From positions 1-21,280 of IMG/VR virus record IMGVR_UViG_3300032677_001152: DNA of 21,280 nucleotides. One strand, given 5' to 3'. Of this stretch, positions 3,492-20,277 are shown piece by piece; position 1 is the stretch's first letter, and each line of letters starts with the position of its first letter. Source of the stretch: a virus. A program made the translations under genes and the position numbers. Below the pieces are notes generated by a model. It saw only the letters and a list, made by a program, of their open reading frames with translations, was not told where the DNA came from and made no database searches.

Positions 3492-3492
3492 A

Positions 3493-3897
3493 CTAATCCT
3501 TGTGATGTTGCCAAAGTTGATCAGTGCCACCTAAGTGACCCCAATCACTGTCTACTGTCATTCTACTACTTATACCGCCACGTGGGCGATATTCAATTTC
3601 TATACGAATACGATCTGGTTCATATACTTTTATTAAATCTTTATACATGACATCTAGTGCTCGCTCATAGCTAAGACGTGTGTCACGATATTGGAAGATG
3701 TATTGTTTAAGACTTTTTAATTCAATGGTCTTGTCTTTGCCATAGAACCAAATAGTAACATCACCAAAGTCAGGTTGATTAGCACCGCCTAAGAATGTAA
3801 ATTCTGGGATATTGATCCTTTGTTCATATCCCTTGGCGGCATTGGGCAATGACTTTAGTATTGAGCTGTCGATACTATCCCACAACTTCTTTTCCAT
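3493..3897 (-). CDS. QueF-fold (T-fold) protein lacking the catalytic cysteine; 7-deazaguanine-related
   Basis: A 134-residue single T-fold protein matching the short QueF family, which reduces preQ0 to preQ1 with NADPH. The family's central signature is clear (ELKSLK at 59-64, PDFG at 42-45, the downstream Glu78, and RPRGGIS near the C terminus). However, the position of the catalytic cysteine (family FTxLCP...) reads FTFLGG, giving Gly37. The histidine that precedes the conserved Glu in QueF is Tyr77. Asp43 and the substrate-binding Glu78 remain. It therefore probably still binds a 7-deazaguanine but cannot form the thioimide intermediate, so it is not an ordinary nitrile reductase. Phages carrying 7-deazaguanine DNA bases use QueF-related or other accessory enzymes; I recall a proposed decarboxylase, DpdL, in that setting, but cannot confirm kinship. 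Start overlaps the upstream stop (TAATG). No other deazapurine gene is in the window. Confidence 0.75.
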
Positions 3898-6044: not shown

Positions 6045-6052
6045 TATTTATC
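6045..6052 (-). promoter_or_regulatory. GATAAATA late-promoter-like motif immediately before the 534-residue gene
   Basis: GATAAATA, one base from T4's TATAAATA, ends seven bases before the ATG at 6037 and overlaps the stop codon of the preceding gene. If active, the transcript would be nearly leaderless. The same octamer occupies the same place before the 849-residue gene and, farther upstream, before gp32. Confidence 0.3.
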
Positions 6053-6809
6053 TGCGTTCTATATCTTCTTCGTCGCAGGCAATACCGTATTGGATTTCAA
6101 CTATTTTACAGGGTCTATTATAAGGATTGTACAGTCTATGCCAGGATTCTTTGCTAATCCATTGATGGTAGAATGTATCTAGCTCATAGGTCCTATTGAG
6201 CTCTGGACTATCTTCCCATTCTGTTTCAACACAGCAACGTCCTTCCGCTATGAACCAAAACTCCCAACGATCCCAATGACGTTGCATGGTTAGGCTTTGC
6301 CCAGGTTCTATGGTAAGTTCTTTAACTTTAGCTGTTGGCATTTCATGTAATACACGCCAATACCCCCATGGGCGTTCTGTTTTAGGTGCTTTGTAATCTT
6401 CTAAGATCCAACTGCTGCTATTCTTTTTAGTTTTACCACCTACGCCAAATACAAATTCTACATCTGTAACCGACATTTCGGGAATGTTTTTAGCAGTACG
6501 ATCACCCCCATTAGCAAAGATAATCCTGCTGTTAGGATAGTTTTGTTTAGTTTCTTCAATGATGTCACAAGCACTGTCATCTGTATCATCAAAGGCGATA
6601 GCATAGTCTACGAATTTCAAATTACTGATGATCGCTTGGCGTTCTTTAAACGGCATAAATGCACGTCCTTTTTTACGTTCAAGCCAACTATCACTGTTAA
6701 CTCCAACAATCAGTATATTACCTAGAGCTTTAGCTGCTTTGAGATATTCTATGTGTCCTGAATGCAGAGGATCAAATCCACCTGTACAAATTACCACTGT
6801 ATTAATCAT
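6048..6809 (-). CDS. bifunctional protein: HIGH-motif nucleotidyltransferase fused to a ManC-type cupin
   Basis: Two domains in 253 residues. Residues 1-130 form a cytidylyltransferase-like fold (RfaE/HldE C-terminal or glycerol-3-phosphate cytidylyltransferase type) with GGFDPLHSGHI at 10-20, containing the nucleotide-binding HSGH, followed by VGVNSDSWLERKKG and a PFKERQAIISNL helix. Residues 143-253 are a cupin resembling the C-terminal domain of type II mannose-6-phosphate isomerases: ERPWGYWRVL, LTIEPGQSLTMQRHWDRWEFW with metal-ligand candidates His178 and Glu183, WHRL (His224) and VEIQYG. The protein would activate a sugar or polyol phosphate with CTP or ATP, while the cupin may isomerise or bind the sugar. 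The start overlaps the methyltransferase end by eight bases; AAGGAAGAG serves as ribosome site. Both domains are recognisable; the combined reaction is unknown. Confidence 0.82.
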   Translation of the reverse strand: MINTVVICTGGFDPLHSGHIEYLKAAKALGNILIVGVNSDSWLERKKGRAFMPFKERQAIISNLKFVDYAIAFDDTDDSACDIIEETKQNYPNSRIIFANGGDRTAKNIPEMSVTDVEFVFGVGGKTKKNSSSWILEDYKAPKTERPWGYWRVLHEMPTAKVKELTIEPGQSLTMQRHWDRWEFWFIAEGRCCVETEWEDSPELNRTYELDTFYHQWISKESWHRLYNPYNRPCKIVEIQYGIACDEEDIERR

Positions 6810-7707: not shown

Positions 7708-8146
7708 CCTCCATACCTGCTGTTCTCAAGCGTGTGACATGTCCTAACATGAAGTTCTTGCTTTCGAGTCCTTTCATGATACCTAACCACTTGTTACGTA
7801 ATAGTGCTACTTCGTTGATGATAGTTTCAAAGTCGATTACTTCATCCTCACCATCAACATATTTTTCAGCATCACGACTAGTCAGAGCACGAGCGTATCC
7901 TTCTAGATACTTTTGGAAGTGTTTCTTGCGTATTTTTCTTAACTGTATGTTGAGGTAATTAAGAACTGCTTCAATCTCTTGTAGCTGATTGAAACGGCGT
8001 TCTGTAATTCCGGGCAGGCCAGCAAGATTCTTTTCTATGTTACCATAGACAGTAACTTCCTTTCGTGCGTCTTCTAGTTCCCGCTCATAGTGAGCTATGA
8101 AATCAGGAATACTACCTAGACTTGCTACTACTCTACTATACCACAT
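7691..8146 (-). CDS. uvsY: UvsY recombination mediator
   Basis: A 151-residue, largely helical, charged protein that loads UvsX onto gp32-covered single-stranded DNA during recombination-dependent replication and repair. Recognisable features, shared with marine T4-like UvsY, are the basic helix LNIQLRKIRKKHF, the ALTSRDAEKYVDGE segment, LRNKWLGIMKGLESKNF and the C-terminal HVTRLRTAGMEDASI. Length fits (T4 UvsY is 137). The ATG lies inside the 3' end of the upstream radical SAM gene (19-base overlap) and has only a distant GAGG, so coupled translation is likely. In related phages it lies close to uvsX; here an AT-rich radical SAM gene is wedged between. Confidence 0.87.
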   Translation of the reverse strand: MWYSRVVASLGSIPDFIAHYERELEDARKEVTVYGNIEKNLAGLPGITERRFNQLQEIEAVLNYLNIQLRKIRKKHFQKYLEGYARALTSRDAEKYVDGEDEVIDFETIINEVALLRNKWLGIMKGLESKNFMLGHVTRLRTAGMEDASIG

Positions 8147-9402
8147 TTTTTAAAATGTTCCTCTAACCATGGAAAGGTTTTCCTCCAATTTAAATTTCTT
8201 CTACGATCTATTTCATTTAAATAATACAATAATTCTTTTTGTTTGTCTATATTTTGTTTACTAGTTATTTTTAATTTATCTATTAGTCCAAATATAGTAT
8301 TTTTAGTTTCTCTATGTTGATCAGGAAGAACAGATATCTTTTCAACAACTATTTGTAATAAATTTTTATAATCATTAAAATCAAAAAAGGATGGACTAAG
8401 CACATGATGATCTATTGGTAATACTAATCCAGACCACCATTTTACAGAACCTTCCTTGTTCCAAGACAGTACTTTTTCTGCTAGAATAGGTAAAGTCTGT
8501 ATGCTCAATGATGTAATTGTAGACATTAATGTCAACGTTATAAATTTATGTTTAAGTAAGTAATTTATATTTTCTTCAAATATAGAACATGAAAAGCCAT
8601 AACGTATATATTCTTGTTCTACTCCCCAGCAATCTACACTAGCCATAATTTCTATTCTTTTTAATACCCGGTTAGCTAATAACTCTTTTATTCTACTAAC
8701 AAATTTTTCTAAAATTTCTCGTTTAACTATTAAATTGGTTATTACCTGAAGTTCAAGATCCTTATTTGGATTAGATTCAATATAGTCGATTAACTTAAAA
8801 AAATCATCTTGTATAAATGGTTCTCCACCCAAAATTGATATTCTTTTCAATTTAGTATAACCGTTATCTAACCATTGCCAAAATATCGGGCTTAACTCAT
8901 CATATTTCTTAGCTGCCAAGATTTCATCATGCTTAGCTAACTTAATTAATTTACTATCAAATTTTTTATCTTCTCCATCAATCCTAGAACTAAATGCTGG
9001 TGTACAATATATACAAGCTAAGTTACAGGTATTTTTAAAAAAAATTTCTAATAATACAGGATCAACTTTAATTAAATTTTGATTTTGATCTAATTCCTGG
9101 GGATAAGGACCTGCAATTGATAACTGTATTTGTCTATCACTGATCCCATCAGCTTGTTCTATATCTCTACAATATTCACATCCATTACCTGGCCATTGGC
9201 CTTGTAACATTCTTGTTCTATCACCCAATTTTTTTTCAGTATTATGAAATTCAAAGAAATTTTCTTTAGTTAATTCTGACAAACTTGCTCTATGACATGA
9301 TGATGTTTGCCCACTATTTAAAAATAAAGTAGACCAACTCCATTTTAATCTGCAGGATACTTTAGATTGAATAGGAAAATATCTTTTTTTGGATTCTGAC
9401 AT
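8128..9402 (-). CDS. radical SAM protein with N-terminal twitch/SPASM-like cluster domain (copy 1, 424 aa)
   Basis: A radical SAM enzyme: the [4Fe-4S]-binding CxxxCxxC is Cys126-Cys130-Cys133 in NTCNLACIYC, and the SAM-binding GGEP is at 192-195. Before the core lies a small cysteine domain (Cys17, Cys36, and Cys75/Cys78 in GCEYC) resembling an auxiliary-cluster domain of the twitch/SPASM type, here N-terminal rather than C-terminal. The C-terminal segment EIDRRRNLNW...FPWLEEHF is shared with the 386-residue paralogue. Such enzymes modify peptides or proteins; no precursor peptide is apparent. The gene starts at a TAATG overlap with the 81-residue gene and overlaps uvsY. It is strikingly AT-rich (one sampled 60-base row about 22% G+C against about 38% in uvsX), suggesting insertion by transfer. 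Confidence 0.88.
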   Translation of the reverse strand: MSESKKRYFPIQSKVSCRLKWSWSTLFLNSGQTSSCHRASLSELTKENFFEFHNTEKKLGDRTRMLQGQWPGNGCEYCRDIEQADGISDRQIQLSIAGPYPQELDQNQNLIKVDPVLLEIFFKNTCNLACIYCTPAFSSRIDGEDKKFDSKLIKLAKHDEILAAKKYDELSPIFWQWLDNGYTKLKRISILGGEPFIQDDFFKLIDYIESNPNKDLELQVITNLIVKREILEKFVSRIKELLANRVLKRIEIMASVDCWGVEQEYIRYGFSCSIFEENINYLLKHKFITLTLMSTITSLSIQTLPILAEKVLSWNKEGSVKWWSGLVLPIDHHVLSPSFFDFNDYKNLLQIVVEKISVLPDQHRETKNTIFGLIDKLKITSKQNIDKQKELLYYLNEIDRRRNLNWRKTFPWLEEHFKKCGIVE

Positions 9403-9647
9403 TAATAGTCATCATCCTCATCTTCATCGTAATCAGCTTCTTCCGTTTCGTCTTCGCCTAGATATTCTTGTAGACTACGTTTAAGATAGCTGTCTGTACC
9501 TGCAAATGTTTTAAGGTCACGTTCAACGATATTGTGATCTGCTACGATAGCCAACACATGATCTGCTGCCGCTTGGCGATCTTTAGGAGCGATATACTCT
9601 TTACAAGTAAGCCAAACTTCGCCTAATGCATCTAATTCAATACTCAT
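9402..9647 (-). CDS. conserved acidic 81-residue protein of the uvsX neighbourhood
   Basis: An 81-residue protein starting MSIELDALGEVWLTCKEYI, with the segment DRQAAADHVLAIVADHN, then GTDSYLKRSLQEYL and an extremely acidic tail rich in Asp/Glu. I recall close relatives directly downstream of uvsX in cyanophages; function unknown. Its stop/start overlap with uvsX (ATGA, four bases) indicates translational coupling, and the acidic tail would suit binding to a DNA-binding partner or DNA mimicry (inference). No membrane segment. Confidence 0.82.
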   Translation of the reverse strand: MSIELDALGEVWLTCKEYIAPKDRQAAADHVLAIVADHNIVERDLKTFAGTDSYLKRSLQEYLGEDETEEADYDEDEDDDY

Positions 9648-10729
9648 TCTGTTATCTCCTCATCTAGTAACGCTGGTGCTTCTGGTGCTGGACCATTCTC
9701 TAATAGTTTAGCATTAGCTGAAATCTCTTTCATCACAATGTCTAAACAACCTTCTTCATTTGATTCCCATGCTTTACGGAATTGTTTGATTTCTTTGCCA
9801 TCTGCTGTGACAAATGCTAGGCGGTTACCATCTTTCTTAAGCAAGCCTTTGGCTTCCATCATATCAGTTAACCCGCTGTATGGGTTCATACCCGTTTCGT
9901 ATGGAATTTTGATCTGCACTGATTCAAAAGGTTTGGCATATCTAGTTTTCATGATCTTACATGCAGCACGTATACCTTTGACTTCTGAAATCTTGTTACC
10001 ATCTTCGTCTTCTTTGAGTTTAAGTTTACGCATAGCAACTACGATACTTGATGCGTAGATAAAACCTTGTCCACCTGAAATCTTATCATCTGGATCAAAC
10101 ATGTCCTGTGATGCATAAGTGTGGTTAGTTGCTACTAATCCAACATTATGGCTACCAAACATATTTACACAATTACGCACCAATGCTGTCAATGCCTTAG
10201 GTTTACGGCCCATATCGCCTTTTAAATCGCCTGCTTCAAATTGATTGATGTCTGTTGGTGTCAATAACATACCTAAACTGTCAATAACAAACAAGACCTT
10301 TGGACAATCTTCTTTTGGTAATGTCTTATATTCTTTCATGAACTCATGGATTGTTTTAGCTACATCATCAATCATAGCTAGATTGAGTTTAAGTAGTTTA
10401 TCCTCGCTGGTATCTACACCTAAGTCATGCAACCATTTTTCATCAAGCGCATTTTCTGTATCAACTAAGATAACATAGATGCCATCTTTCTGTGCATTAC
10501 GGATTAAATTACCACTACAGATAAAACTTTTACCTGCACCACTTTCACCAGCAAACACTGTAACTTTACCTAGTGGCACACCACGGTGGAAGTCACCACT
10601 GATTAAGTAGTTAAGTGTGTAATTGCCTGTTGAGATCCAGTCAGTAGGATCATTAAATCCCGTGCTAAGTCCATCGATTGACTTGGTAATTGATTTTCTA
10701 AATTTTGATATATCAAATGGTTTTGCCAT
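9644..10729 (-). CDS. uvsX: UvsX RecA-like recombinase
   Basis: A 361-residue RecA/RAD51-family strand-exchange ATPase. The N-terminal segment MAKPFDISKFRKSITKSI precedes the core with Walker A GESGAGKS at 61-68, the catalytic-glutamate region VDTENALDE, Walker B VLFVIDSLGML, and the DNA-binding loop region DKISGGQGFIYASS. The acidic C terminus (PALLDEEITE) matches T4 UvsX. It pairs homologous strands with UvsY and gp32 to start replication forks and repair breaks. Ribosome site AAGGAA precedes the ATG. It is followed, with a four-base overlap, by the 81-residue gene. Upstream is the AT-rich 250-residue gene and, beyond that, a short relic resembling the start of uvsX. Confidence 0.95.
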   Translation of the reverse strand: MAKPFDISKFRKSITKSIDGLSTGFNDPTDWISTGNYTLNYLISGDFHRGVPLGKVTVFAGESGAGKSFICSGNLIRNAQKDGIYVILVDTENALDEKWLHDLGVDTSEDKLLKLNLAMIDDVAKTIHEFMKEYKTLPKEDCPKVLFVIDSLGMLLTPTDINQFEAGDLKGDMGRKPKALTALVRNCVNMFGSHNVGLVATNHTYASQDMFDPDDKISGGQGFIYASSIVVAMRKLKLKEDEDGNKISEVKGIRAACKIMKTRYAKPFESVQIKIPYETGMNPYSGLTDMMEAKGLLKKDGNRLAFVTADGKEIKQFRKAWESNEEGCLDIVMKEISANAKLLENGPAPEAPALLDEEITE

Positions 10730-10746
10730 GATTATTTCCTTTTTTA

Positions 10747-11499
10747 TTAGTTAAAAATGTTGTAAAAATCTTGAGTATTTGTAGGCATGCTCGACAATAA
10801 TCGACAATCTGTATGTGATTTATTATAATGCATTAACAGCATCGCATAAATTAAACTGCTTTCGTAAAAAGTTAAAGTAATTGGTTCGTCTTTTCCAGCA
10901 ATAATCTGATCAACTAACTGATAATACCTGTCAACTTTGTTAACAAAAGATTGATTGGCTACAACCACATTATCTGCATATTCATCGATTCTGTCTGCCA
11001 ATGGCGTTAATCCACATAGTTTTAAATATTGTACAATGGCAAGACGATTATTCCAATACCAGTCAATCTCAAAAATTTTATCATACTCAGTGTACCAATC
11101 TATCGGACTGGTTAATTTATTTTTTATCCCGACTCCAGCCAATTCGATTTTTTCACCTATAGTTTCGGCCACTTGTTTAGAATATATACTTATATCCTCA
11201 GAGGTAGGAGCTGGCCAAAAATCTACTTTATAATGTCCCATCTCAAGAATCAGTATCCTGGATCGAATGTTAAATGATGTAGATACTAGCAAATTAGGCA
11301 TAGCCCATTCAATATATTCTTTAGTATTAATTTTATTTGGATGATTAATACTTTTTATGCAAGACGATTCTATCTGATGTTGATTCCCAACTATATTTTT
11401 AAATTTTGAGTGGTCTGCATCACCTTCTACTGTACAATAGTCTATCAACCCTATTAGGGTATGGCCCAACCCACCGTGAGGGTAAGTTAAATACAACAT
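10747..11499 (-). CDS. hypothetical protein (250 aa) with N-terminal GGLGHTL motif
   Basis: Not recognised. It opens MLYLTYPHGGLGHTLIGLI, a strand followed by a Gly-rich loop and helix, which could bind a phosphate or nucleotide; some glycosyl- and sulfotransferases start similarly, but no downstream motif confirms either. The rest is a mix of strands and amphipathic helices with many Tyr, Trp and Ile (EIDWYWNNRLAIVQYL), no signal peptide and no membrane segment. It is AT-rich (one sampled row about 27% G+C) like the radical SAM genes. It ends 17 bases before uvsX and overlaps a 30-codon frame at its 5' end. It belongs to the accessory cassette between gp32 and uvsX. Confidence 0.65.
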   Translation of the reverse strand: MLYLTYPHGGLGHTLIGLIDYCTVEGDADHSKFKNIVGNQHQIESSCIKSINHPNKINTKEYIEWAMPNLLVSTSFNIRSRILILEMGHYKVDFWPAPTSEDISIYSKQVAETIGEKIELAGVGIKNKLTSPIDWYTEYDKIFEIDWYWNNRLAIVQYLKLCGLTPLADRIDEYADNVVVANQSFVNKVDRYYQLVDQIIAGKDEPITLTFYESSLIYAMLLMHYNKSHTDCRLLSSMPTNTQDFYNIFN

Positions 11500-11579
11500 G
11501 TATATAAATCTTTAAAAATAGAATGGCTATCTAATTTCCATAGTTGAACCAATGATGCTAAGTCAAATAGTTTTGCCAT
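11487..11579 (-). pseudogene. uvsX 5'-end relic or 30-residue small ORF
   Basis: A 31-codon frame beginning MAKLFDLASLVQ starts three bases after the stop of the 386-residue radical SAM gene and ends inside the start of the 250-residue gene. From eight bases before its ATG through codon 6 (11562-11587), 23 of 26 bases match the same stretch of uvsX (10712-10737), the three differences all being C/T. After that similarity is lost. It has a ribosome site (AGAGG). Either it is a remnant of uvsX left when the 250-residue gene was inserted, or a real small protein sharing a leader by chance. Confidence 0.5.
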
Positions 11580-11581
11580 AA

Positions 11582-12742
11582 TTATTTGCCCTCTATTAAA
11601 TTATATAATTCTGTAAATACTGTACTACTATCTAATCCTCTTCGTTGATCTAATTCTTTTAGCTCAGCGAATGTTGAATCGATGTTCTTATCGAACGGTA
11701 TATCTAAATAGTTTAACATCAACTGTAACGAATTGTAAAGAGAATATTTTGGATTTGATGTTGCTAATTTAGCCTTTAATTTAATTCTAATATCATCAAT
11801 CATATGAATTGGTAAGTTGCTTACATGCCACGGAGCAGGTGTATCCAATGGGTTTACAATAAATGTATTTTCATGGAATCCCATTCCTTGTAAGAAGTCA
11901 AAACATTTTAATATCGACGATCCATTTAGAACAAACCAAGTTGAATTAAAGTTAATTAGTTTAAAATCTTGTGTTAGTTCTTGTAGATTTTTTACAAATT
12001 TTGTCCAAGTGCCACCATATCTGACATACTCAAATTCTTCTTCAATACTGTCAACGCTAACTGTCCAATGAACATTCTTAAATGTTTTGAGTAATTTATA
12101 TACCGGACCATCAATAACACTTAAATTTGTATTGATTCTAATAGTTACATCTGGATTTATTTCTTTAAGTTTTTCCAACAACACAACATTTTCTTTAATC
12201 AATAATGGTTCACCACCTGCTAGATAAACATGTTTTACGCTTTCTAGATTATTGTAGATATATTCTAAAGATTCCTGTAGTGCTTGTTCATTAATAATTG
12301 GTGTCTTGTTAAGCTCGCGTGCCCACGCACTGCTTAGATACTCATCACAGTACACACAGGCAAAGTTACAGGTGTTGCTCCAACGAAGATCTAACATTTT
12401 AAGTGTGTAGTTCTCTGGCTGGTCAAACATAGATAAATCATCATCTTTTACTGTTTTCAAATACCAAACTCTATTACTAACTTGATCAAAACTATTGCGT
12501 TGATTATGCTCTAACCTGTAACAGTGTGAGCATCTATCATGGAACACATTAGACAACATATCTTTTTTAATATTTTGATTTGCTTGTCCTTCTAAAATAT
12601 TAACTAATTTTTCATTATTGATATTACCAATGGTTTCTGGAGTAACGGCGCAATTCCTAACGTCTCCGTTAGGTTGAATATATACACCAATCCATGGTAG
12701 TACACAGAAATTTTTCTTAGTAAGGTACGTTTTATGATCCAT
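11582..12742 (-). CDS. radical SAM protein with N-terminal twitch/SPASM-like cluster domain (copy 2, 386 aa)
   Basis: The clearest of three paralogues. An N-terminal auxiliary-cluster-like domain has Cys13 (FCVLPWIGVYIQPNGDV), Cys31 (NCAV), the turn IGNINNE, and Cys71/Cys74 in RCSHCYRLE; these are the hallmarks of a SPASM/twitch domain but placed before the catalytic core. The core has Cys125-x3-Cys129-x2-Cys132 (NTCNFACVYC), GGEP at 176-179, and strands such as TIRINTNLS and VHWTVSVDS. The C terminus ELDQRRGLDSS...FTEL is shared with copy 1. Family members form ether, thioether or C-C bonds in peptides or oxidise residues; the substrate here is unknown. The start overlaps the SDR gene by 11 bases. 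AT-rich. Confidence 0.9.
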   Translation of the reverse strand: MDHKTYLTKKNFCVLPWIGVYIQPNGDVRNCAVTPETIGNINNEKLVNILEGQANQNIKKDMLSNVFHDRCSHCYRLEHNQRNSFDQVSNRVWYLKTVKDDDLSMFDQPENYTLKMLDLRWSNTCNFACVYCDEYLSSAWARELNKTPIINEQALQESLEYIYNNLESVKHVYLAGGEPLLIKENVVLLEKLKEINPDVTIRINTNLSVIDGPVYKLLKTFKNVHWTVSVDSIEEEFEYVRYGGTWTKFVKNLQELTQDFKLINFNSTWFVLNGSSILKCFDFLQGMGFHENTFIVNPLDTPAPWHVSNLPIHMIDDIRIKLKAKLATSNPKYSLYNSLQLMLNYLDIPFDKNIDSTFAELKELDQRRGLDSSTVFTELYNLIEGK

Positions 12743-13274
12743 GATGATTTGGTCCTAGGGTTATTTCATTAATCTCTAAAGTTGGTCCAACTGAGTTCAA
12801 ACACTCTACTAATTTTTCAGCCCAATCATCAGCGTTAGCATGATCTGATCCTGCATCAGGTTGTGTAGCGACCGCACCAGGTTTAACTAATGTTATTGAT
12901 GGCCACATGGATCTAGCTCGTAGTTGATTACATGCTTCTTCTAAGGCACGTTTTTGTACTAAATATTCATCCCATTCAACCCTAGGTGATACCGGTACCA
13001 TAGTCATTTGTGTGCTAATTACTATGATATGTTTATTTTCTTGTCCTTGCCATTTGCGCCATACTTCAAACAATAATTCAGTTTGTGCGAATCCAGACTG
13101 TGCATTATTAATAAACATATCGCAGGGTTCGATCATACCTGCTATTTTAGGTAGACTGCGAATGTTATATCCGTTGCGACGACTAAGTCCAACGATTTCA
13201 TGTCCTTGTGCTTCATATATCTTGGCTAATGCTTGACCTATACCTGCTGAATGTCCTGTTATAGCAATTTTCAT
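12732..13274 (-). CDS. short-chain dehydrogenase/reductase (SDR)
   Basis: A short (180-residue) classical-type SDR with the NAD(P)-binding TGHSAGIG at 6-13, the NNAQ motif at 56-59 corresponding to NNAG, a candidate catalytic Ser87 (VISTQM) and YLVQK giving Tyr104 and Lys108. Arg residues in SRRNGYN after strand 2 suggest NADP preference. It is some 60 residues shorter than typical SDRs, lacking much of the C-terminal substrate region, so the substrate is probably small or the protein acts in a complex. ATGA overlap with the upstream radical SAM gene and an 11-base overlap with the downstream one place it in one translational chain with both. Related SDRs occur in marine phages, role unknown. 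Confidence 0.87.
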   Translation of the reverse strand: MKIAITGHSAGIGQALAKIYEAQGHEIVGLSRRNGYNIRSLPKIAGMIEPCDMFINNAQSGFAQTELLFEVWRKWQGQENKHIIVISTQMTMVPVSPRVEWDEYLVQKRALEEACNQLRARSMWPSITLVKPGAVATQPDAGSDHANADDWAEKLVECLNSVGPTLEINEITLGPNHHGS

Positions 13275-14152
13275 AGGCCTCTCAACTTGTTTTGTTTTTG
13301 TATATATGCCAATGATTCTGGCGCACCTTTATTTTCAACGGTCAATTCTCTAGGTTCTTTAAGATAGGCATAGCTATGATCTAAATTATGTTCTTTAACA
13401 AACTCTAATATGTTAGGTAAATCGTCTACATTCAGGGCACTAACAGTAGTCCATGTGTTTAGTTTAACAGGCATGGCCATATACCGTTGTAGATTAGCAT
13501 AGAACTTGTCCCATTTAATGGGCCAACGTACAAGATCATGCACTGATCCAATACCATCTAGACTAACTGTAACAGTAACCTGTACACCACGTTCACAAAG
13601 TGTTAAAAGTTCTTCTAATACTGTGCTACAATTTGTGTTTAGTCTGATTGATTTAATTGACTTGGGTAAGTTTACCAGTATATGTTTATAGTTTTTACTA
13701 TGGCTAGGTTCACCACCGTTAATGTCTAAGTGTACCACTCTATCCAATGGCAATTTCCAAAAAGCATTAGAGTTATCTACAATAGGATATGTTTTACTTT
13801 TCAAACCACCAATTAGTGTGCTATGATTTTCATCGCAGGTTAGACATGCGCTGTTACATACATTGTCTAGTACACCACCTACGGTTAGGTAATCTTTTGT
13901 GGTTTGTAATTTGTCAAATTTAATAGCATTTAGTCTGATGCTGGTATTGTTTTCCTGTTCTGTTTCCATACAGCGTTCACATTCATCAGGCCAAATGCCT
14001 TTTGCCATACTTTCTTTAATCTCATGCAACCATTCGCTGTTTTCCATGGACTCTAAGGTAAGAAATTGTGCCTGCCTAGTCATATGGCCACAACGACTAA
14101 CAGTGCCGTTGGGATTAAGACGAACAAAATGATCTAGTCTAGGACAATACAT
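13271..14152 (-). CDS. radical SAM protein with N-terminal twitch/SPASM-like cluster domain (copy 3, 293 aa)
   Basis: Shortest paralogue. The N-terminal cluster domain shows Cys3, Cys21 in VSRCGHM, and Cys58/Cys61 in ECERCMETE. The radical SAM motif is Cys99-x3-Cys103-x2-Cys106 (VCNSACLTC), and GGEP lies at 146-149. It ends soon after the barrel strands, at KQNKLRGL, corresponding to the conserved Arg-Gly-Leu of copy 2. I chose the ATG at 14152 over the GTG at 14158, because AAGG is then nine bases away rather than three. It overlaps the sulfotransferase-like gene by 14 bases and the SDR by four. Likely a peptide- or metabolite-modifying enzyme; substrate unknown. Confidence 0.88.
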   Translation of the reverse strand: MYCPRLDHFVRLNPNGTVSRCGHMTRQAQFLTLESMENSEWLHEIKESMAKGIWPDECERCMETEQENNTSIRLNAIKFDKLQTTKDYLTVGGVLDNVCNSACLTCDENHSTLIGGLKSKTYPIVDNSNAFWKLPLDRVVHLDINGGEPSHSKNYKHILVNLPKSIKSIRLNTNCSTVLEELLTLCERGVQVTVTVSLDGIGSVHDLVRWPIKWDKFYANLQRYMAMPVKLNTWTTVSALNVDDLPNILEFVKEHNLDHSYAYLKEPRELTVENKGAPESLAYIQKQNKLRGL

Positions 14153-14759
14153 GCTCACAGGCCTTGGGATCTTGTTCTTTAAGATATGTTAATATTTCAT
14201 TAAATGTCAGGGTTTGTCCAACTAAACTTAATAGTAAATTATCTATTCTTAGGTACATTTCATTATGTATATTTGTGTTTAGTCTATCTACGACTTCCTG
14301 TGATAATATTTTTTCTTCGTTTGGTTTTATATTCAGAGGAGTAAATTCTTTTAAACTATCCATTCCATGTAAGTGTAACTTAGTTGTAGATTTGTCAGTG
14401 TATCTTGTTAGGTTAACTAGCCAACTAAACTGTGGTGCGTAATGTCTATTAAGGAACAAATATGTTTCAGCGAAATAGATAATAGTATCTAAATCCAATT
14501 GGGGATTATCCCTTAAGATATTATAGACGTAGGTGTTAAATCCAGAGATAAATCTCTCTTGGGGGTTTCTTATGATCACATTGATATCAGTTAGCTTTCT
14601 TATCTGTTCATTGAATAAGATTTTACACTTCTGTGCTTGAGCATATTCATTGATACTACTACTGCCATTTTTAAAAATGGAATAGATGTACCGTTGTGAA
14701 GCTAATTCAATAACTTCACAACGGTCAGGAAAGATAATATCATCTATCCTACTTAACAT
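14139..14759 (-). CDS. sulfotransferase-like protein (PAPS-dependent family)
   Basis: A 206-residue protein with the two co-substrate motifs of Golgi-type/family 2 sulfotransferases. The 5'-phosphosulfate loop is SIFKNGSSS at 27-35, and the 3'-phosphate-binding segment is IIRNPQERFISGF at 62-74, which contains the Arg...Ser pair. These bind PAPS, the sulfate donor. His84-like residues cannot be assigned with confidence, and the C-terminal half is not conserved to my eye. It could sulfate a sugar, lipid or peptide. The gene follows gp32 after 11 bases without a clear ribosome site and overlaps the next radical SAM gene. It needs host PAPS; no kinase or sulfurylase is in view. Confidence 0.65.
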   Translation of the reverse strand: MLSRIDDIIFPDRCEVIELASQRYIYSIFKNGSSSINEYAQAQKCKILFNEQIRKLTDINVIIRNPQERFISGFNTYVYNILRDNPQLDLDTIIYFAETYLFLNRHYAPQFSWLVNLTRYTDKSTTKLHLHGMDSLKEFTPLNIKPNEEKILSQEVVDRLNTNIHNEMYLRIDNLLLSLVGQTLTFNEILTYLKEQDPKACEHVLS

Positions 14760-14770
14760 CTATGTATTGC

Positions 14771-15781
14771 TTATTGCGTCTTCTGACGATTGCGGATCAT
14801 CGCTAAGATGTCTTCAGCACGTTGTGTGCCACCCGCTGGAGGTGTTGCCACTGGTGCTGTAGGAGCCGCTTCAGCTACTACTGGTGCTGGAGATGCTACT
14901 AGAGCAGCAGGAGTATCAAATTCCTCATCAGCTACTGCTGGTGCTGATACTGCTGGTGTTGCTGCCGGAGCCGCATCTGTGTTAGCTGCGCCCATACCTC
15001 TTGGTTTGTAATAGTTACTCCAACGATCTGAGTCATATGCTTGACCATCCACTGATGCTTCAAACATTTCTTTGATAACTTTTAATTCAACATCATTTGG
15101 TTTCTTTGGAAGAAAATCAGCTAGATTAAACAAACCATATTGCTCAATCGCTGCCGCTTCATCTGCTGTTAGTGCAGATTCTTTACGTGACCATTTTGAT
15201 GTGCTGTAATCAGCATAACCACCTTTTGATGTTTTAGTAACTGTAAAGTCTAAACCACCTTGGTAGTCTGTTGGAAGATTTTCTAACTCTGGATCTAACA
15301 ATGCAGCCTTGACTAGATTGAAAATCTGTGGGCTGATGATAAATCTACGAATTGGGTTTGCTGGTGATTGATCATCTTTTAATGGATTCTCACGCACAAA
15401 ACCTTGGAACAAGTATGATCGTTTCTTCCAATACTTACGACCCATTTCTTCTAAACTTTGGTCCTTAAACCAAGTACGTACTTCTGCTAAGATTGGACAT
15501 GCTTCGCCCCACATCTCAACACAAGGTACTTGAACTGTGACTGGTTTACTGTCTGCTTGACCTTTAATGCCAGCAAATGGTAAATTAATCATTGCTCGTT
15601 CTACCCAAAAGAATGTGTTTTTTGTATTTGCGTCTGGAAGGAATCGGATGCGAGCGTTTTGACCCTCTGCGATGTTCCAATGTGCGTAGATAGCGTTATC
15701 GCCACCACCTTGTGAATTGCCTGAACTGCGTGACTCTTGTGCTTGTAATTTTGCACGGATTTCTGCTAATGAAGTTGCCAT
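14771..15781 (-). CDS. 32: gp32 single-stranded DNA-binding protein
   Basis: A 336-residue gp32 homologue that coats single-stranded DNA in replication, recombination and repair and works with UvsX and UvsY. The N-terminal MATSLAEIRAKLQAQ helix precedes the core: WNIAEGQNARIRFLPDA, TFFWVERAMINLPFAG, CVEMWGEACPI (Cys87, Cys95), YLFQGFVREN and RFIISPQIF. These match marine T4-like gp32. The T4 zinc ligands are only partly represented. Residues from about 270 form an Ala/Pro-rich, partly acidic linker, and the protein ends AEDILAMIRNRQKTQ, in place of the fully acidic T4 tail. Ribosome site AAGGAG is seven bases before the ATG. Upstream is a 94-base leader with a candidate late promoter and RNA fold, so it may be autoregulated as in T4. 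Confidence 0.93.
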   Translation of the reverse strand: MATSLAEIRAKLQAQESRSSGNSQGGGDNAIYAHWNIAEGQNARIRFLPDANTKNTFFWVERAMINLPFAGIKGQADSKPVTVQVPCVEMWGEACPILAEVRTWFKDQSLEEMGRKYWKKRSYLFQGFVRENPLKDDQSPANPIRRFIISPQIFNLVKAALLDPELENLPTDYQGGLDFTVTKTSKGGYADYSTSKWSRKESALTADEAAAIEQYGLFNLADFLPKKPNDVELKVIKEMFEASVDGQAYDSDRWSNYYKPRGMGAANTDAAPAATPAVSAPAVADEEFDTPAALVASPAPVVAEAAPTAPVATPPAGGTQRAEDILAMIRNRQKTQ

Positions 15782-15808
15782 GTTATTTCTCCTTAAGTTG
15801 GTCTTAAA

Positions 15809-15846
15809 ATATGCCTAAACGTATTAGTCATATAAAACATAATACG
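15809..15846 (-). promoter_or_regulatory. candidate RNA hairpin/pseudoknot in the gp32 leader
   Basis: In the RNA, CGUAUUA (15840-15846) pairs with UAAUACG (15820-15826). Within its loop, AUAUG (15829-15833) can pair with CAUAU (15809-15813) downstream, giving an H-type arrangement with connecting segments of six, two and six bases. It ends 27 bases before the gp32 ATG. T4 gene 32 mRNA has a leader pseudoknot that nucleates gp32 binding for autorepression. The stems are seen; the function is inferred by analogy. Confidence 0.4.
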
Positions 15847-15853
15847 CTATTAT

Positions 15854-15861
15854 TATTTATC
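15854..15861 (-). promoter_or_regulatory. candidate late promoter (GATAAATA) of gp32
   Basis: Minus-strand GATAAATA differs from T4's TATAAATA at one position. It lies 73 bases before the gp32 ATG in the intergenic leader. A start about six bases downstream would put the hairpin at 15820-15846 at the very 5' end of the mRNA. Supportive position, weak statistics in AT-rich DNA. Confidence 0.4.
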
Positions 15862-15875
15862 TCGCAATGATTATT

Positions 15876-16652
15876 TTACAAATATTTTACCAAAACATCA
15901 ACAATCTTTTGATAACCGTGTATATCTGGGTGAACTTCATGCCAATTACGGTAAATTAAATCTAATTTATCTGCATTATCTATGGCTAATTGTTTAAATT
16001 CTGTGCCAAATTTCTGCATGAATGCTGGTTCCTTATCCAATTGACTAAACCATTCTGGATCACTGAGATATCCATCTTGTTTAAGTTCTGGTATTAATAA
16101 TTTAGTTGCACTTGGTACAGCCGCAACAAGATTTGAATAGTTAGTTATGCTAGGATGTAGTTGACTCCAACCACCAACACACAATATTTTGATATTATAT
16201 TTGATTGCTATACTGTTTAATTTAGAATAAAATCCAGTAAAATAGTCATCAATCATTGCTTGCATTGACGCCCAATTAGTCAATGAATCTACAAATTTTT
16301 GGTCTAAGGCTTTCCATTTGGTATGCGTATCTTCAGGGGTCTGTTTTACATAAAGATACTTTTCTCTGAATATGTCTGTTTGTAAAAATATTATATGATT
16401 AATCGAATTTAAATCAAATTCTACTATTTTATCAAGAAACGTACCATATAATGACCTACCAGTATGATGCCATTGTCCTTCTAATCTATCTATCATTAGC
16501 CAATTACTGCCACCACCTTGACTAATATTCGTAATGGTATGTCCCATACTTTCTAAAATAGATTGTATGCCTTCTCCAGTGGGGGCATAATTATCACCCA
16601 CACCTGAAAATACTCCGACTCCCCAGCTATCGCCTGCGATTAATATTTTCAA
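15876..16652 (-). CDS. SGNH/GDSL-type hydrolase-like protein
   Basis: An SGNH-fold esterase/acyl hydrolase candidate. Block I is ILIAGDSWGVG, with nucleophile Ser9; block II is ISQGGGSNW (oxyanion Gly); the segment HIIFLQTDIFRE is in the block III area; and HPDIHGY near the C terminus supplies His241. The residue three before that His, usually Asp, is His here, so the triad may be incomplete. I prefer a TTG start at 16652: AGGCAGG is seven bases upstream and the protein then begins MKILIAGDS, as expected; a frame extension to a TTG at 16676 lacks support. It overlaps the upstream gene by 26 bases. Very AT-rich (one sampled row about 17% G+C). Possibly removes acyl groups from a surface glycan; substrate unknown. 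Confidence 0.72.
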   Translation of the reverse strand: MKILIAGDSWGVGVFSGVGDNYAPTGEGIQSILESMGHTITNISQGGGSNWLMIDRLEGQWHHTGRSLYGTFLDKIVEFDLNSINHIIFLQTDIFREKYLYVKQTPEDTHTKWKALDQKFVDSLTNWASMQAMIDDYFTGFYSKLNSIAIKYNIKILCVGGWSQLHPSITNYSNLVAAVPSATKLLIPELKQDGYLSDPEWFSQLDKEPAFMQKFGTEFKQLAIDNADKLDLIYRNWHEVHPDIHGYQKIVDVLVKYL

Positions 16653-17655
16653 TGTACACCTGCCTGTTATGTTCAAATATTGGCATTAATTCTTTATGCA
16701 TGGGTTGAAGATCAGCATACGATAATTGTGCGATTCTATCAATTTCAGAAATAATTGCTTGTAATCGATCATAGTTATTTGTAATAGTATCGTAGGTTTC
16801 GTTAATCCATGGACTAAATGTTTTGAACCCAAATGTTTTAAGTTTGTTTAAAGTCCCTGCGCCACTCATCACAACAAATGGTTTACCTATGTATAAATTT
16901 TTAACTGTTTTTTCTGTGATCCAAGTTGTAGTTATACAATCTGTTTCCACAATTATTTCCATAAAATAATCATTGTAAGGTTTACGGCTCGCTCCTACAA
17001 TCATTTCGTGGTCATACACTCGCATAGGGAATAATTGATCATATATGATAGGAGTATTCGCTTCTGCCCAAGCGATTTCATCTGGAAAATACTTTTTTAA
17101 TCCCCAATCACATAACATACCAGGTTCCTGATACGAAATATGACTATCATCTACGTAGTTTTCTTTAAGGTGTTTAGCAACTAATAACCTATAAAATGTA
17201 CCACGATGAAACCATACAGCAAATTTTTTGCTAAAAGGTCCTTGCGGTATAGGTATGTCTTTTATTGTTGGATATAATGTTCCACACCATTGAGGTACTG
17301 ATTCTTTTTTAATTACAGTAATATTAGGGATTTCAAAATCTTCTCTGCAAATAACTGCGCAGGTATCTGACGTTAAAGAAAAACACTCAACAATATTTTT
17401 AATTATTTCGATTGCGCCAGATAGTTGTAGTATTGACCCATCTTCAGATAAAAATAAAAATCTTTTGTTTTGCCCTTGTTTGTGTAATTGATATATTAGT
17501 TGATCTACTCCTCTTAAAGAGTATGTACGTTCAAATAAACAATCAAAATTTACTACTAGAACATCTTCTAATTCTAATATCGTTTCAAATCGATCATGAT
17601 AGTTAACGGTATTAACTTTCTGCCAGAAAAATCGTTCCAATGGATGCATAATCAT
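16627..17655 (-). CDS. putative glycosyltransferase-like protein (342 aa)
   Basis: The C-terminal third contains TTWITEKTVKNLYIGKPFVV, with MSGAGTLNKLKTFGF and SPWINETYD after it. This resembles the nucleotide-sugar-binding half of fucosyltransferase-like GT-B enzymes ('TEKxxxxxxxGxxPV'). The N-terminal part, including RFLFLSEDGS and KKFAVWFHRGTFYR, is not assignable. No signal peptide or membrane segment. I recall similar proteins in marine phages, usually unannotated. There is no clear ribosome site before the ATG at 17655 (a second ATG follows two codons later), and it begins 18 bases after a terminator stem, so expression may rely on readthrough or an unseen promoter. Forms an AT-rich pair with the SGNH protein. 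Alternative: an unrelated conserved phage protein. Confidence 0.55.
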   Translation of the reverse strand: MIMHPLERFFWQKVNTVNYHDRFETILELEDVLVVNFDCLFERTYSLRGVDQLIYQLHKQGQNKRFLFLSEDGSILQLSGAIEIIKNIVECFSLTSDTCAVICREDFEIPNITVIKKESVPQWCGTLYPTIKDIPIPQGPFSKKFAVWFHRGTFYRLLVAKHLKENYVDDSHISYQEPGMLCDWGLKKYFPDEIAWAEANTPIIYDQLFPMRVYDHEMIVGASRKPYNDYFMEIIVETDCITTTWITEKTVKNLYIGKPFVVMSGAGTLNKLKTFGFKTFSPWINETYDTITNNYDRLQAIISEIDRIAQLSYADLQPMHKELMPIFEHNRQVYIENINRRR

Positions 17656-17663
17656 ACTTATCA

Positions 17664-17695
17664 GGCAAAAGAAAAGGCACTATAAAAGTGCCTTT
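17664..17695 (-). terminator. intrinsic terminator after the 849-residue gene
   Basis: The RNA forms AAAGGCACU - UUUAU - AGUGCCUUU, a perfect 9-bp stem with five-base loop (17673-17695), followed by UUUCUUUUG. It lies 18 bases after the stop of the 849-residue gene and separates the terminase unit from the glycosyltransferase-like gene. Confidence 0.85.
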
Positions 17696-17713
17696 GTCTT
17701 ATGATATTGTATC

Positions 17714-20263
17714 TTATTTTAAACCTGCTAGTTTTTTCATATCTTCTTTAACACTTGACCAATCTTGTTTATATAAATTGTCCATAGGACCTGGTACTTT
17801 GCCATAAGATTGTGCCACACTAGGGACTGTTTGGACGAAACCTGTCAATGCTTTGCCTTTGTCTATCCATTGTTGTAATGGTCCTGGTTTAGTATCTTTG
17901 AATAAGCCTGGTGCTGTAGTAACTACTTGTCCATTTTTTAATTTAGCTTGGATAGCTGTTGGAAGTTTTGTATTTGGGCTAGGGCCTAAGATCGTAGCCA
18001 TCGTGCCTTCTGCTGGAATGTAAACTTCTTTGCCAATTAACGGTTTTAACCATGCCATAAATCTACTGTCTGTTTCTTCTAAATTTGGCGCATTGAATTT
18101 TTTAACTACTTCTGCGTTAACTTTTTCAATATGATATATTTCGCCATCTACCTGGATGATATAATTTTCGCCTTCATCCCTGAGTACTTTACCTGAAATT
18201 TCTGGTTGAGCACGATTTCTTATGATATCGCCTACGTTGACTACGTCTTCGTTTAATGCTTGTTCAAATGCTTCGTGTAGGTCACTGTGTTCTTGTTCAA
18301 TACCAGCGTCGCGTTCGATCATGCGAACCCAACTGCTGATGTCACTGCTACCAATTTCTTCAACAGGTGCAGCGAATTCTGCTATTTCACGGGCCGCTTC
18401 TAATACACCATCTGGGCCTAGTTTCTTTAATAGTTCATGATGACTGTGTGCGATCCTACGGATGATAGCTGATTGGATGGCTTCAAAGCCACCGTCATCT
18501 TCTTCATCTTCTTTCACTTGATCTTTGTACAAGTCGTCAATGTCACCTAGGTAACCATCGCAAGCATGTTCTTCATCGTTTGGGCAGTCACCGCCGCAGT
18601 ATCTACATTCTTCTTTGTCTTCGTATACTACACCGTCCATGCCGCCATCACCTGAGCCATATGTGTTGCCTTCATCTACAGCATCACCTAGACCAAGATA
18701 CCAAAACCAATTTTCAAATCCGCCTGGGTTAGTATCATAATCTGCATGGGCACTGTTCCTAGCACCACGACACATGCGGTCAAATTCTTCTGATGCGCCA
18801 TGTTGCCTAGCGATAGCTGCTAGTTCTTTATACAGATGTTCTGCGCCTGCTGCATCTTTATATTTTTCAATTTTTGGTGCTAGTTCATTATACTTGTCAG
18901 ATAATTCTGCATGTAATTCACCCATGGCACCTTCATCAATTTCTTGTTCTTCACCTGGTTCTGCTGGTTTATCAGGATCACCAAGTTCGTCTAAGATGGC
19001 TTGATACATAGTTGGGTTGAGATCCTGTAGGCGATCCATAACTGTATCACGTGCATCTGCTTTAGGATCTACTGCTGCCAGTTCTCCTAGTTTATCAAAT
19101 AATATATCATCACCAAAGATGCTGTATAGCGCATTGGTAGCGTTTTGTGCATCAACACCCACTGGCAATTCTTGGCTTAATAGTTCAATTAGCTTGTCTT
19201 GATCATCAGATGTTTTTGGCAGTGCCCAAGAGCCTTCTGCTATATTGTTAGCCCAGCTTTCAAATTGTTCTGTAAATTTATTATTCTTTTTCATATCATA
19301 AGCCTTGTATACTAATGGTAGTGCATCTGTCATTTTTTCATTGAACACACGCTTGATAAAGCGTTCTTTCATTTCATCTAAATTGGCTTCATCTTCTGGA
19401 ATATAACTAGTTGATGTAGCGACGAATTGTTCTTTGCAACGAGTGTAACCTTTCTTACCACTCATGCGTTTGAGAGTATTGTTTAGTAAACCATGATATT
19501 CAAATGCAGCTTCAACCATGCTTTGTGTTTCACTATCTTCAAATGTACGACGGCGTACATTGTTCATGAATGGTTTAAGTTTCGTGCATTCCATCGCCAT
19601 TTCGCAGATGTGTTTGCCCAAATCATCATGTGGAGTGCCACCAGCTGACACATGGCGTGCCATAGCACGTGCACCTGTCAAACTCTTGAATGGCATCTTG
19701 AAACGTTCACCTTCTGAATTTTCAACGTAAATGCTGTTGATATGACGGCTGCGTGCACCTGTCATTTCATCAACTACTGGAGCTTTATGACGTACGATAA
19801 TACGTGCAGGCCCAAACTTTTGATAGCTGGACTTGCTGGTACCATATAGTTTGCTTTCACCAATGACTTCATCTTTGTCGTATGTAGCATCAGCTTTGCT
19901 TTGTTGTGCGATATCGCGATGTTTTAGTGTTGAACGTGTGATATCACGGGGTTCAAAACTTAACAGATTACGTTTGGCAAATTCACGCAGTTCACGCAAG
20001 AATTTATACCAATGTTTCTTTTCATGCTCTGATAAACCGTCCGTGATGTTCTTGCTGAAGTAGACTTTCAGTGACGTTTCGTCAATCAAACTCATGGTGA
20101 TGTTACCATGGTTTTCACCATCTACTACATAATCAAAGTTGAAAAAACGTGCTTTTTCAGGATCACTGGTAGCTTTGGCATTTTCGTCACCTAAGCTGAC
20201 ATCCTCAAAACGATCACGGATTTTTTCAAATAGACTTTCTGCGATTTTGTTAACTTCTCTCAT
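17714..20263 (-). CDS. large phage protein of unknown function (849 aa), probable virion-associated protein
   Basis: No named family. Residues 1-220 form a conserved-looking domain (FEKIRDRFEDVSL, YFSKNITDGL, PFKSLTGARAMARHVS) that I recall as a hypothetical protein of marine T4-like phages. The middle is strongly acidic and helical. Near residues 553-568 there is a compact cysteine cluster CRYCGGDC...HAC (Cys553, Cys556, Cys560, His566, Cys568) that could bind zinc. From about 670 a small beta-rich part (VVNVGDIIRNR, GENYIIQVDGEIYHIEKV) looks SH3/KOW-like, and the C terminus is basic (DMKKLAGLK). It starts 14 bases after the terminase stop, with no clear ribosome site, and ends before an intrinsic terminator. 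Position next to gp17 suggests a packaging or virion role (inferred). In T4 the tail sheath gene follows gp17. Confidence 0.6.
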   Translation of the reverse strand: MREVNKIAESLFEKIRDRFEDVSLGDENAKATSDPEKARFFNFDYVVDGENHGNITMSLIDETSLKVYFSKNITDGLSEHEKKHWYKFLRELREFAKRNLLSFEPRDITRSTLKHRDIAQQSKADATYDKDEVIGESKLYGTSKSSYQKFGPARIIVRHKAPVVDEMTGARSRHINSIYVENSEGERFKMPFKSLTGARAMARHVSAGGTPHDDLGKHICEMAMECTKLKPFMNNVRRRTFEDSETQSMVEAAFEYHGLLNNTLKRMSGKKGYTRCKEQFVATSTSYIPEDEANLDEMKERFIKRVFNEKMTDALPLVYKAYDMKKNNKFTEQFESWANNIAEGSWALPKTSDDQDKLIELLSQELPVGVDAQNATNALYSIFGDDILFDKLGELAAVDPKADARDTVMDRLQDLNPTMYQAILDELGDPDKPAEPGEEQEIDEGAMGELHAELSDKYNELAPKIEKYKDAAGAEHLYKELAAIARQHGASEEFDRMCRGARNSAHADYDTNPGGFENWFWYLGLGDAVDEGNTYGSGDGGMDGVVYEDKEECRYCGGDCPNDEEHACDGYLGDIDDLYKDQVKEDEEDDGGFEAIQSAIIRRIAHSHHELLKKLGPDGVLEAAREIAEFAAPVEEIGSSDISSWVRMIERDAGIEQEHSDLHEAFEQALNEDVVNVGDIIRNRAQPEISGKVLRDEGENYIIQVDGEIYHIEKVNAEVVKKFNAPNLEETDSRFMAWLKPLIGKEVYIPAEGTMATILGPSPNTKLPTAIQAKLKNGQVVTTAPGLFKDTKPGPLQQWIDKGKALTGFVQTVPSVAQSYGKVPGPMDNLYKQDWSSVKEDMKKLAGLK

Positions 20264-20268
20264 ATAAC

Positions 20269-20276
20269 TATTTATC
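20269..20276 (-). promoter_or_regulatory. GATAAATA late-promoter-like motif immediately before the 849-residue gene
   Basis: GATAAATA sits between the terminase stop and the ATG at 20263, ending five bases before the ATG. It matches the motif at 6045-6052 in both sequence and placement. If used as a late promoter the transcript would be leaderless; alternatively the A-rich sequence only helps ribosome binding. Confidence 0.28.
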
Positions 20277-20277
20277 T

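Follow-up and report, generated by a model that had tools for sequence, protein, structure and literature searches.

A conserved phage cassette between gp32 and uvsX

In a 21,280-nucleotide stretch of viral DNA (IMG/VR record IMGVR_UViG_3300032677_001152, positions 1 to 21,280; hereafter the window), we found a compact phage cassette in which overlapping genes for a sulfotransferase-like protein (ST), a short radical S-adenosylmethionine (SAM) enzyme (rSAM3), a short-chain dehydrogenase/reductase (SDR) and a full-length radical SAM enzyme (rSAM2) are co-conserved between a gp32-like gene and uvsX. ST-rSAM3 is the fixed core of the cassette, and the cassette with this core, together with the short rSAM3 subfamily, is the new element described here. 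The third radical SAM gene of the window, rSAM1, is optional and not part of the conserved cassette. The cassette and its flanks are arranged as follows (positions in the window).

14771..15781, minus strand: gp32-like single-stranded DNA-binding protein, flanking the cassette upstream; assigned by its place in the T4-like gene order
14139..14759, minus strand: ST, sulfotransferase-like, 206 aa; upstream partner of rSAM3, with an overlap of 14-20 bp
13271-14158, minus strand: rSAM3, 295 aa from GTG; short N-terminal-twitch radical SAM protein, core of the conserved cassette
12732..13274, minus strand: SDR, 180 aa; short-chain dehydrogenase/reductase with TGxxxGIG, NNA and YxxxK
11582-12742, minus strand: rSAM2, 386 aa; full-length N-terminal-twitch radical SAM enzyme
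9644..10729, minus strand: UvsX recombinase, the downstream flank; PF00154 RecA, best matches in large T4-like phages

Conservation was assessed in 89 viral loci with an rSAM3 orthologue; this sample includes a few overlapping or near-identical contigs, and clustering at 90% identity reduced it to 55 distinct rSAM3 proteins. The window has the gene order gp32-ST-rSAM3-SDR-rSAM2-uvsX. ST was found in 85 of the 89 loci, and in the other four the contig starts at or inside rSAM3. SDR was present in 83/89 loci and rSAM2 in 79/89, while orthologues of the flanking genes gp32 and uvsX were found in 80/89 and 75/89, respectively. ST and rSAM3 share 14-20 bp of their reading frames in almost every locus, and SDR and rSAM2 overlap in most; the overlaps of radical SAM genes with an SDR and a sulfotransferase-like gene, which the original prediction had read from the window, are real. 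Six loci (L025, L040, L050, L054, L055 and L057) have ST-rSAM3 alone ahead of uvsX, and 42 loci, the window not among them, carry an extra gene between rSAM3 and SDR. Additional radical SAM genes lie between rSAM2 and uvsX in L138 (the same contig as L073), L081 and L042; in L138, they are followed downstream by an N6/N4 DNA methylase gene.

No paper describing the cassette was found in the literature searched, most subscription journals being outside that search. Among the isolated phages searched, we found neither the gp32-ST-rSAM3-SDR-rSAM2-uvsX cassette nor relatives of ST, SDR or rSAM1; Sinorhizobium phage Phosso, one of the nearest cultured relatives by UvsX and terminase, lacks the cassette, and its uvsX comes right after an unnamed gene at the place of gp32. 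The rSAM3 subfamily was seen only in viral contigs, the bacterial scan having been run with an rSAM2 profile, not an rSAM3 profile.

Three radical SAM proteins with an N-terminal twitch domain

The three radical SAM proteins share one layout (Cys, Cys, CxxC, then CxxxCxxC, then GGEP), as had been predicted from the window. The features of this layout, together with rSAM1, are listed below.

8128-9402, minus strand: rSAM1, 424 aa; N-terminal-twitch radical SAM protein between u81b and uvsY, outside the conserved cassette
9169..9354, minus strand: N-terminal twitch region of rSAM1, C17-C78, by direct sequence reading
12482..12709, minus strand: N-terminal twitch domain of rSAM2, residues 12-87, aligned with the C-terminal twitch of BtrN
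12347..12370, minus strand: SAM-cluster motif CxxxCxxC of rSAM2 (CNFACVYC); C125, C129 and C132 invariant
13970..14146, minus strand: N-terminal twitch region of rSAM3, C5-C63; C5, C23, C60 and C63 invariant
13835..13858, minus strand: SAM-cluster motif CxxxCxxC of rSAM3 (CNSACLTC); C101, C105 and C108 invariant

The cysteines are C17, C36, C75 and C78 followed by C126, C130 and C133 in rSAM1 (read from the sequence), C13, C31, C71 and C74 followed by C125, C129 and C132 in rSAM2, and C5, C23, C60 and C63 followed by C101, C105 and C108 in rSAM3. None of the seven varies among 45 rSAM2 and 55 rSAM3 orthologues, indicating that the layout is not a matter of chance; the rSAM3 orthologues are 60-86% identical to the window copy. 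Since a Met at 14152 is invariant in the 55 rSAM3 orthologues, rSAM3 probably starts at this ATG. The C-terminal Arg block, first noticed in at least two copies, is common to all three (RRNL in rSAM1, RRGL in rSAM2 and LRGL in rSAM3, the last with an invariant Arg and a Gly conserved in at least 90%); rSAM3 lacks about 90 internal residues ahead of it. Pairwise identity among the three proteins is only 23-28%.

The invariant CxxxCxxC and a (beta/alpha)6 barrel with the GGE motif, together with predicted folds that match radical SAM enzymes, place the proteins in the radical SAM superfamily. Their four N-terminal cysteines, invariant in the orthologues, follow the SPASM/twitch pattern CX9-15GX4C-gap-CX2C, and in rSAM2 PF13186 (SPASM) matches this N-terminal part (residues 13-75, E 3.5e-8) ahead of PF04055 (residues 122-258). 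In profile comparison, residues 12-87 of rSAM2 aligned with the twitch (residues 168-249) of BtrN, the radical SAM dehydrogenase from the butirosin pathway (PDB 4M7S/4M7T), such that the four auxiliary-cluster cysteines matched one to one. The similarity is remote, with a whole-sequence E of 8e-5 and each stretch weak alone (E ~0.1 and 5), and the domain order is reversed, the twitch of BtrN following the barrel. The sactipeptide synthase SkfB (PDB 6EFN), whose barrel is matched by the profiles of both rSAM2 and rSAM3, showed the same swapped order against rSAM2, its twitch matching the rSAM2 N terminus more weakly. SPASM and twitch domains are described in reviews as C-terminal extensions (PMC6231123, PMC9012708), and because the auxiliary domain follows the barrel in characterized enzymes, the architecture of the three proteins, in which it is N-terminal, is best read as permuted, with the Cys domain predicted to be a twitch-type auxiliary-cluster domain; the move of this domain to the N terminus, proposed in the original prediction, is thus borne out. 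Such a relocation is sterically plausible, since the twitch of SkfB packs back onto barrel strand 1 (PMC6231123). AlphaFold2 models had a mean predicted local distance difference test score of 88 for rSAM2 and 87 for rSAM3, residues 71-90 of rSAM2 being of low confidence.

A new domain architecture was rejected, as the permuted layout is already curated in NCBIfam NF033640 (N_Twi_rSAM, "twitch domain-containing radical SAM protein"), a family without an assigned function; its twitch is taken as N-terminal from the model name and from a match that covers the profile from its first position, before the barrel. E-values against this model were 6e-66 for rSAM1, 3e-79 for rSAM2 and 8e-41 for rSAM3. 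rSAM1 (223 bits) and rSAM2 (267 bits) match along the whole model and score above its curated 170-bit cut-off, sharing with the family the N-terminal Cys/Cys/CxxC, the barrel and the C-terminal Arg block. rSAM3 is shorter, scores below the cut-off (140.5 bits) and forms its own clade with 100% support; it therefore appears to be a short, diverged relative of N_Twi_rSAM and not a member. A viperin-like antiviral enzyme (NF038283, cut-off 180 bits) was likewise rejected: rSAM1 and rSAM2 scored 29-39 bits, and the model was not among the best 25 matches of rSAM3.

Separate histories of the three radical SAM genes

Only about 10 of the 89 loci have rSAM1, which lies between u81b and uvsY. Over window positions 9399-21212, contig L005 shows 99.98% identity, after which rSAM1 is absent and uvsY follows at 92.8% identity; this absence may reflect gene gain, gene loss or a recombination boundary, and a misassembly at the join is possible. 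The three radical SAM genes had been taken as one unit in a multi-step pathway. This was rejected on the distribution of rSAM1, including its absence from L005, while the part of the proposal concerning rSAM2, rSAM3, SDR and ST stands as a co-conserved set.

rSAM2 has moved in another way. Its identity correlates weakly (Spearman 0.16-0.34) with the identities of its partners in the cassette. The window copy is 44% identical to those of the closest relatives, with UvsX at 96%, and 65% identical to those of more distant phages, with UvsX at 81%. Because these identities run opposite to those of UvsX, rSAM2 has been exchanged, its alleles reassorting against their cassette neighbours. Independent movement of the copies, which the original prediction had named as grounds for giving up its pathway, therefore applies to rSAM1 and in part to rSAM2, but not to ST-rSAM3.

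A tree of 106 proteins, arbitrarily rooted, resolved rSAM1, rSAM2 and rSAM3 into separate clades, each with strong support. Recent duplication was rejected because every copy falls in its own well-supported clade, and the copies represent three ancient subfamilies.

Partner enzymes of the cassette

In ST, K30-N31 within FKNGSSS, which resembles the 5'-phosphosulfate-binding motif, is invariant in 43 orthologues, as are R64, P66, R69 and G73 of RNPxxRxxSG, which resembles the 3'-phosphate-binding motif, and H106. The commonest Pfam match of ST was PF03567 (Sulfotransfer_2), found weakly in 16 of the 43 members (best E 0.0018), with the window copy below threshold.

The SDR carries the motifs of classical SDRs (TGxxxGxG, NNAG-like and YxxxK), although it is shorter than usual, at 150-191 aa across loci. 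T6, G7, G11, I12, G13, N57, Y104 and K108 are invariant in 30 orthologues, PF00106 matched with an E of 3e-4, and PDB SDRs matched with E-values down to 5e-7.

The extra gene of 42 loci encodes a protein with a conserved HxD...H...R pattern (H80 in 42/42, D82 in 40/42, H129 in 42/42 and R141 in 42/42), suggesting a putative 2-oxoglutarate (2OG)-Fe(II) oxygenase; the Pfam oxygenase models gave no match.

Relatives in other phages and in bacteria

As many as 15 N_Twi-matching genes occur in a related contig, with at least nine in most of the larger contigs and some of the genes in tandem arrays. The phage arrays inspected adjoin a carbamoyltransferase gene or lie near a DegT-type aminotransferase gene. 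When the rSAM2 profile was run against bacterial and archaeal genomes, relatives turned up mainly in Bdellovibrionota, with a few in other phyla, including a gammaproteobacterium. Arrays of such genes also occur in bacteria, and the six bacterial genomes searched have 4-16 N_Twi matches each. One bacterial neighbourhood contains a deoxythymidine diphosphate (dTDP)-glucose-4,6-dehydratase-like gene, a nucleotide-sugar transferase gene and a 2OG-Fe(II) oxygenase gene; another contains a GT2 glycosyltransferase gene, a nucleotide-sugar dehydrogenase gene and a PMT_2 gene. In three bacterial loci, short SDRs related to that of the window lie near N_Twi genes. The gene context of these relatives, annotated for few loci, favours a role in sugar tailoring.

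Two N_Twi copies of a 383-kb contig (L019) are 53-60% identical to bacterial ones, which suggests either recent exchange with bacteria or a contig that is partly bacterial.

Multiple radical SAM genes are known from other phages. Vibrio phage K566 (L164) has four, with N-terminal Cys/Cys/CxxC, in one cluster (record positions 161548-168284), one of them annotated merely as hypothetical; the clusters of Vibrio phages K566 and K567 differ from the cassette in sequence, at 20-28% identity. Twelve radical SAM genes were reported in 2017, without a pathway, in TARA_ERS488813_N000010, a 183-kb T4-like marine contig (PMC5332604).

The window and its other genes

By its UvsX, UvsY, terminase and gp32-like genes, the window belongs to a T4-like phage; by UvsX and terminase, its nearest cultured relatives are large T4-like phages. 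The window copy of the gp32-like protein had no match in the Pfam scan. Two further features adjoin the cassette or recur among relatives.

10747..11499, minus strand: 250-aa gene between rSAM2 and uvsX, restricted to the closest relatives of the window (six loci) and without a match in family searches
6048-6809: fusion of an HldE-like sugar-1-phosphate nucleotidyltransferase and a phosphomannose isomerase-type cupin, kept beside uvsY and a methyltransferase gene in many relatives

The window also encodes a dTDP-glucose-4,6-dehydratase-like protein. A 342-aa protein (16627-17655), without a match in the Pfam scan, resembles GT10-type glycosyltransferases by eye in its C-terminal half, and its relatives sit inside N_Twi arrays (L132 and L141). 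At 3493-3897 lies a QueF-like gene (80 bits, where the TIGR03139 cut-off is 86.9), with 94% identity in three related contigs. An adenosylhomocysteinase (2205-3530; 617 bits, above the NCBIfam cut-off), which would recycle S-adenosylhomocysteine from methyl transfer and not the products of radical SAM enzymes, and an AhpC-type peroxiredoxin (1457-2020) are encoded as well.

Proposed function of the cassette

We tentatively propose that the cassette is a biosynthetic pathway for sugar or glycan tailoring in an uncultured T4-like phage lineage, and that it most likely yields a modified sugar bound for a surface glycan of the phage or its host. We infer the following reactions, in this order. Each radical SAM enzyme would cleave SAM at its CxxxCxxC cluster, and the resulting 5'-deoxyadenosyl radical would abstract a hydrogen atom from a sugar or cyclitol carbon. 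The N-terminal four-Cys auxiliary cluster would then accept an electron, as proposed for that of the cyclitol dehydrogenase BtrN (PMC6231123, PMC9012708), to give a keto, dehydrated or epimerized product. The SDR would reduce a carbonyl, the oxygenase, where present, would hydroxylate, and ST would transfer sulfate. Of nine related contigs, a single one has an APS (adenosine 5'-phosphosulfate)-kinase gene, so the sulfate donor PAPS (3'-phosphoadenosine 5'-phosphosulfate) would be host-derived in most.

The proposal draws on the N_Twi_rSAM matches, the BtrN alignment, the co-conserved and overlapping genes with their invariant catalytic residues, the HxD...H...R gene of 42 loci, and the sugar genes and short SDRs near N_Twi relatives. 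The dTDP-glucose-4,6-dehydratase-like protein and the HldE-like fusion protein of the window also speak for it, as do the fold neighbours BlsE and DesII, whose substrates are sugars, although peptide enzymes are among these neighbours too.

Several observations weigh against this proposal, the scarcity of APS-kinase genes among them. The cassette itself has no gene for a glycosyltransferase or a sugar-nucleotide enzyme, and only two bacterial neighbourhoods were annotated. ST was assigned from motifs, the window protein lying below every Pfam sulfotransferase cut-off, and profile search found no PDB relatives of ST. In the literature covered, peptides or nucleotides are the substrates of most SPASM/twitch enzymes, and a role with nucleic acids would fit the location between gp32 and uvsX as well. 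The top fold neighbour of rSAM2 was BlsE of the blasticidin S pathway (PDB 7VOB; Z 12.7, root-mean-square deviation (rmsd) 3.6 over 217 residues), and DesII of the desosamine pathway (PDB 8HZV) gave Z 11.9 and rmsd 4.3 over 225 residues; both differ from rSAM2 in not being permuted. The peptide maturases SkfB, SuiB and anSME, as well as MoaA, rank as high as BlsE in fold searches, and the comparison of predicted folds does not discriminate among enzymes of sugars (BlsE, DesII), peptides (SuiB, SkfB, anSME) and nucleotides (MoaA, viperin), which tie.

The peptide-modifying enzymes SkfB, SuiB, anSME and Mmp10 among the nearest folds, together with the many peptide maturases among weak NCBIfam matches, would accord with a pathway in which rSAM2 and rSAM3 alter a phage or host protein that ST then sulfates, for example on Tyr. 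We regard this as rather unlikely: the overlapping or abutting genes of the cassette leave no space for a precursor-peptide gene, the Pfam scan showed no recognition domain of ribosomally synthesized and post-translationally modified peptides, and the bacterial relatives that were annotated belong to clusters of the glycan type. The same bacterial context, glycan-type and not beside DNA genes, speaks against modification of DNA, RNA or nucleotides, in which a hypermodified base or cap would protect the genome and the proximity to gp32, uvsX and uvsY would reflect this role. Thymidylate-synthase-family genes are a common entry to hypermodified pyrimidines, but were found in only two of nine related contigs. 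The fixed position between gp32 and uvsX, the QueF-like gene of the window, the closeness in fold of the nucleotide enzymes MoaA, viperin and QueE, and an exchange of rSAM2 alleles that would fit diversification against host nucleases all point towards such a role, which we nevertheless consider unlikely. Modification of proteins and of nucleic acids are both serious rivals to sugar tailoring.

It is quite improbable that the three radical SAM genes are auxiliary genes with no relation to one another, brought together by drift and sharing no pathway. That rSAM1 is a clean presence/absence gene and that rSAM2 correlates so weakly with its neighbours would agree with such drift, which is plausible for rSAM1 alone. 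For ST-rSAM3-SDR-rSAM2 it is contradicted by the pairing of ST with rSAM3 wherever the contig reaches, by the presence of SDR and rSAM2 in most loci, and by the overlapping frames and invariant catalytic residues.

Returning to the tailoring pathway, a bolder version, which we consider doubtful, is that ST-rSAM3 forms the core of a new phage system in which permuted-twitch chemistry and sulfation would yield a hypermodification that carries sulfate, on a glycan of virion or host or on a nucleic acid, and is not known from any phage; rSAM2/SDR and the oxygenase would then be interchangeable tailoring modules that diversify it.

If the proposed pathway is correct, a widespread uncultured T4-like lineage would hold a fixed radical SAM/sulfotransferase pathway within its core replication region, in place of the three-gene radical SAM unit first envisaged. 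The uncharacterized N_Twi_rSAM family would then have a function open to testing, its partner enzymes being few and constant, and the natural circular permutation would let one ask what the auxiliary cluster must do.

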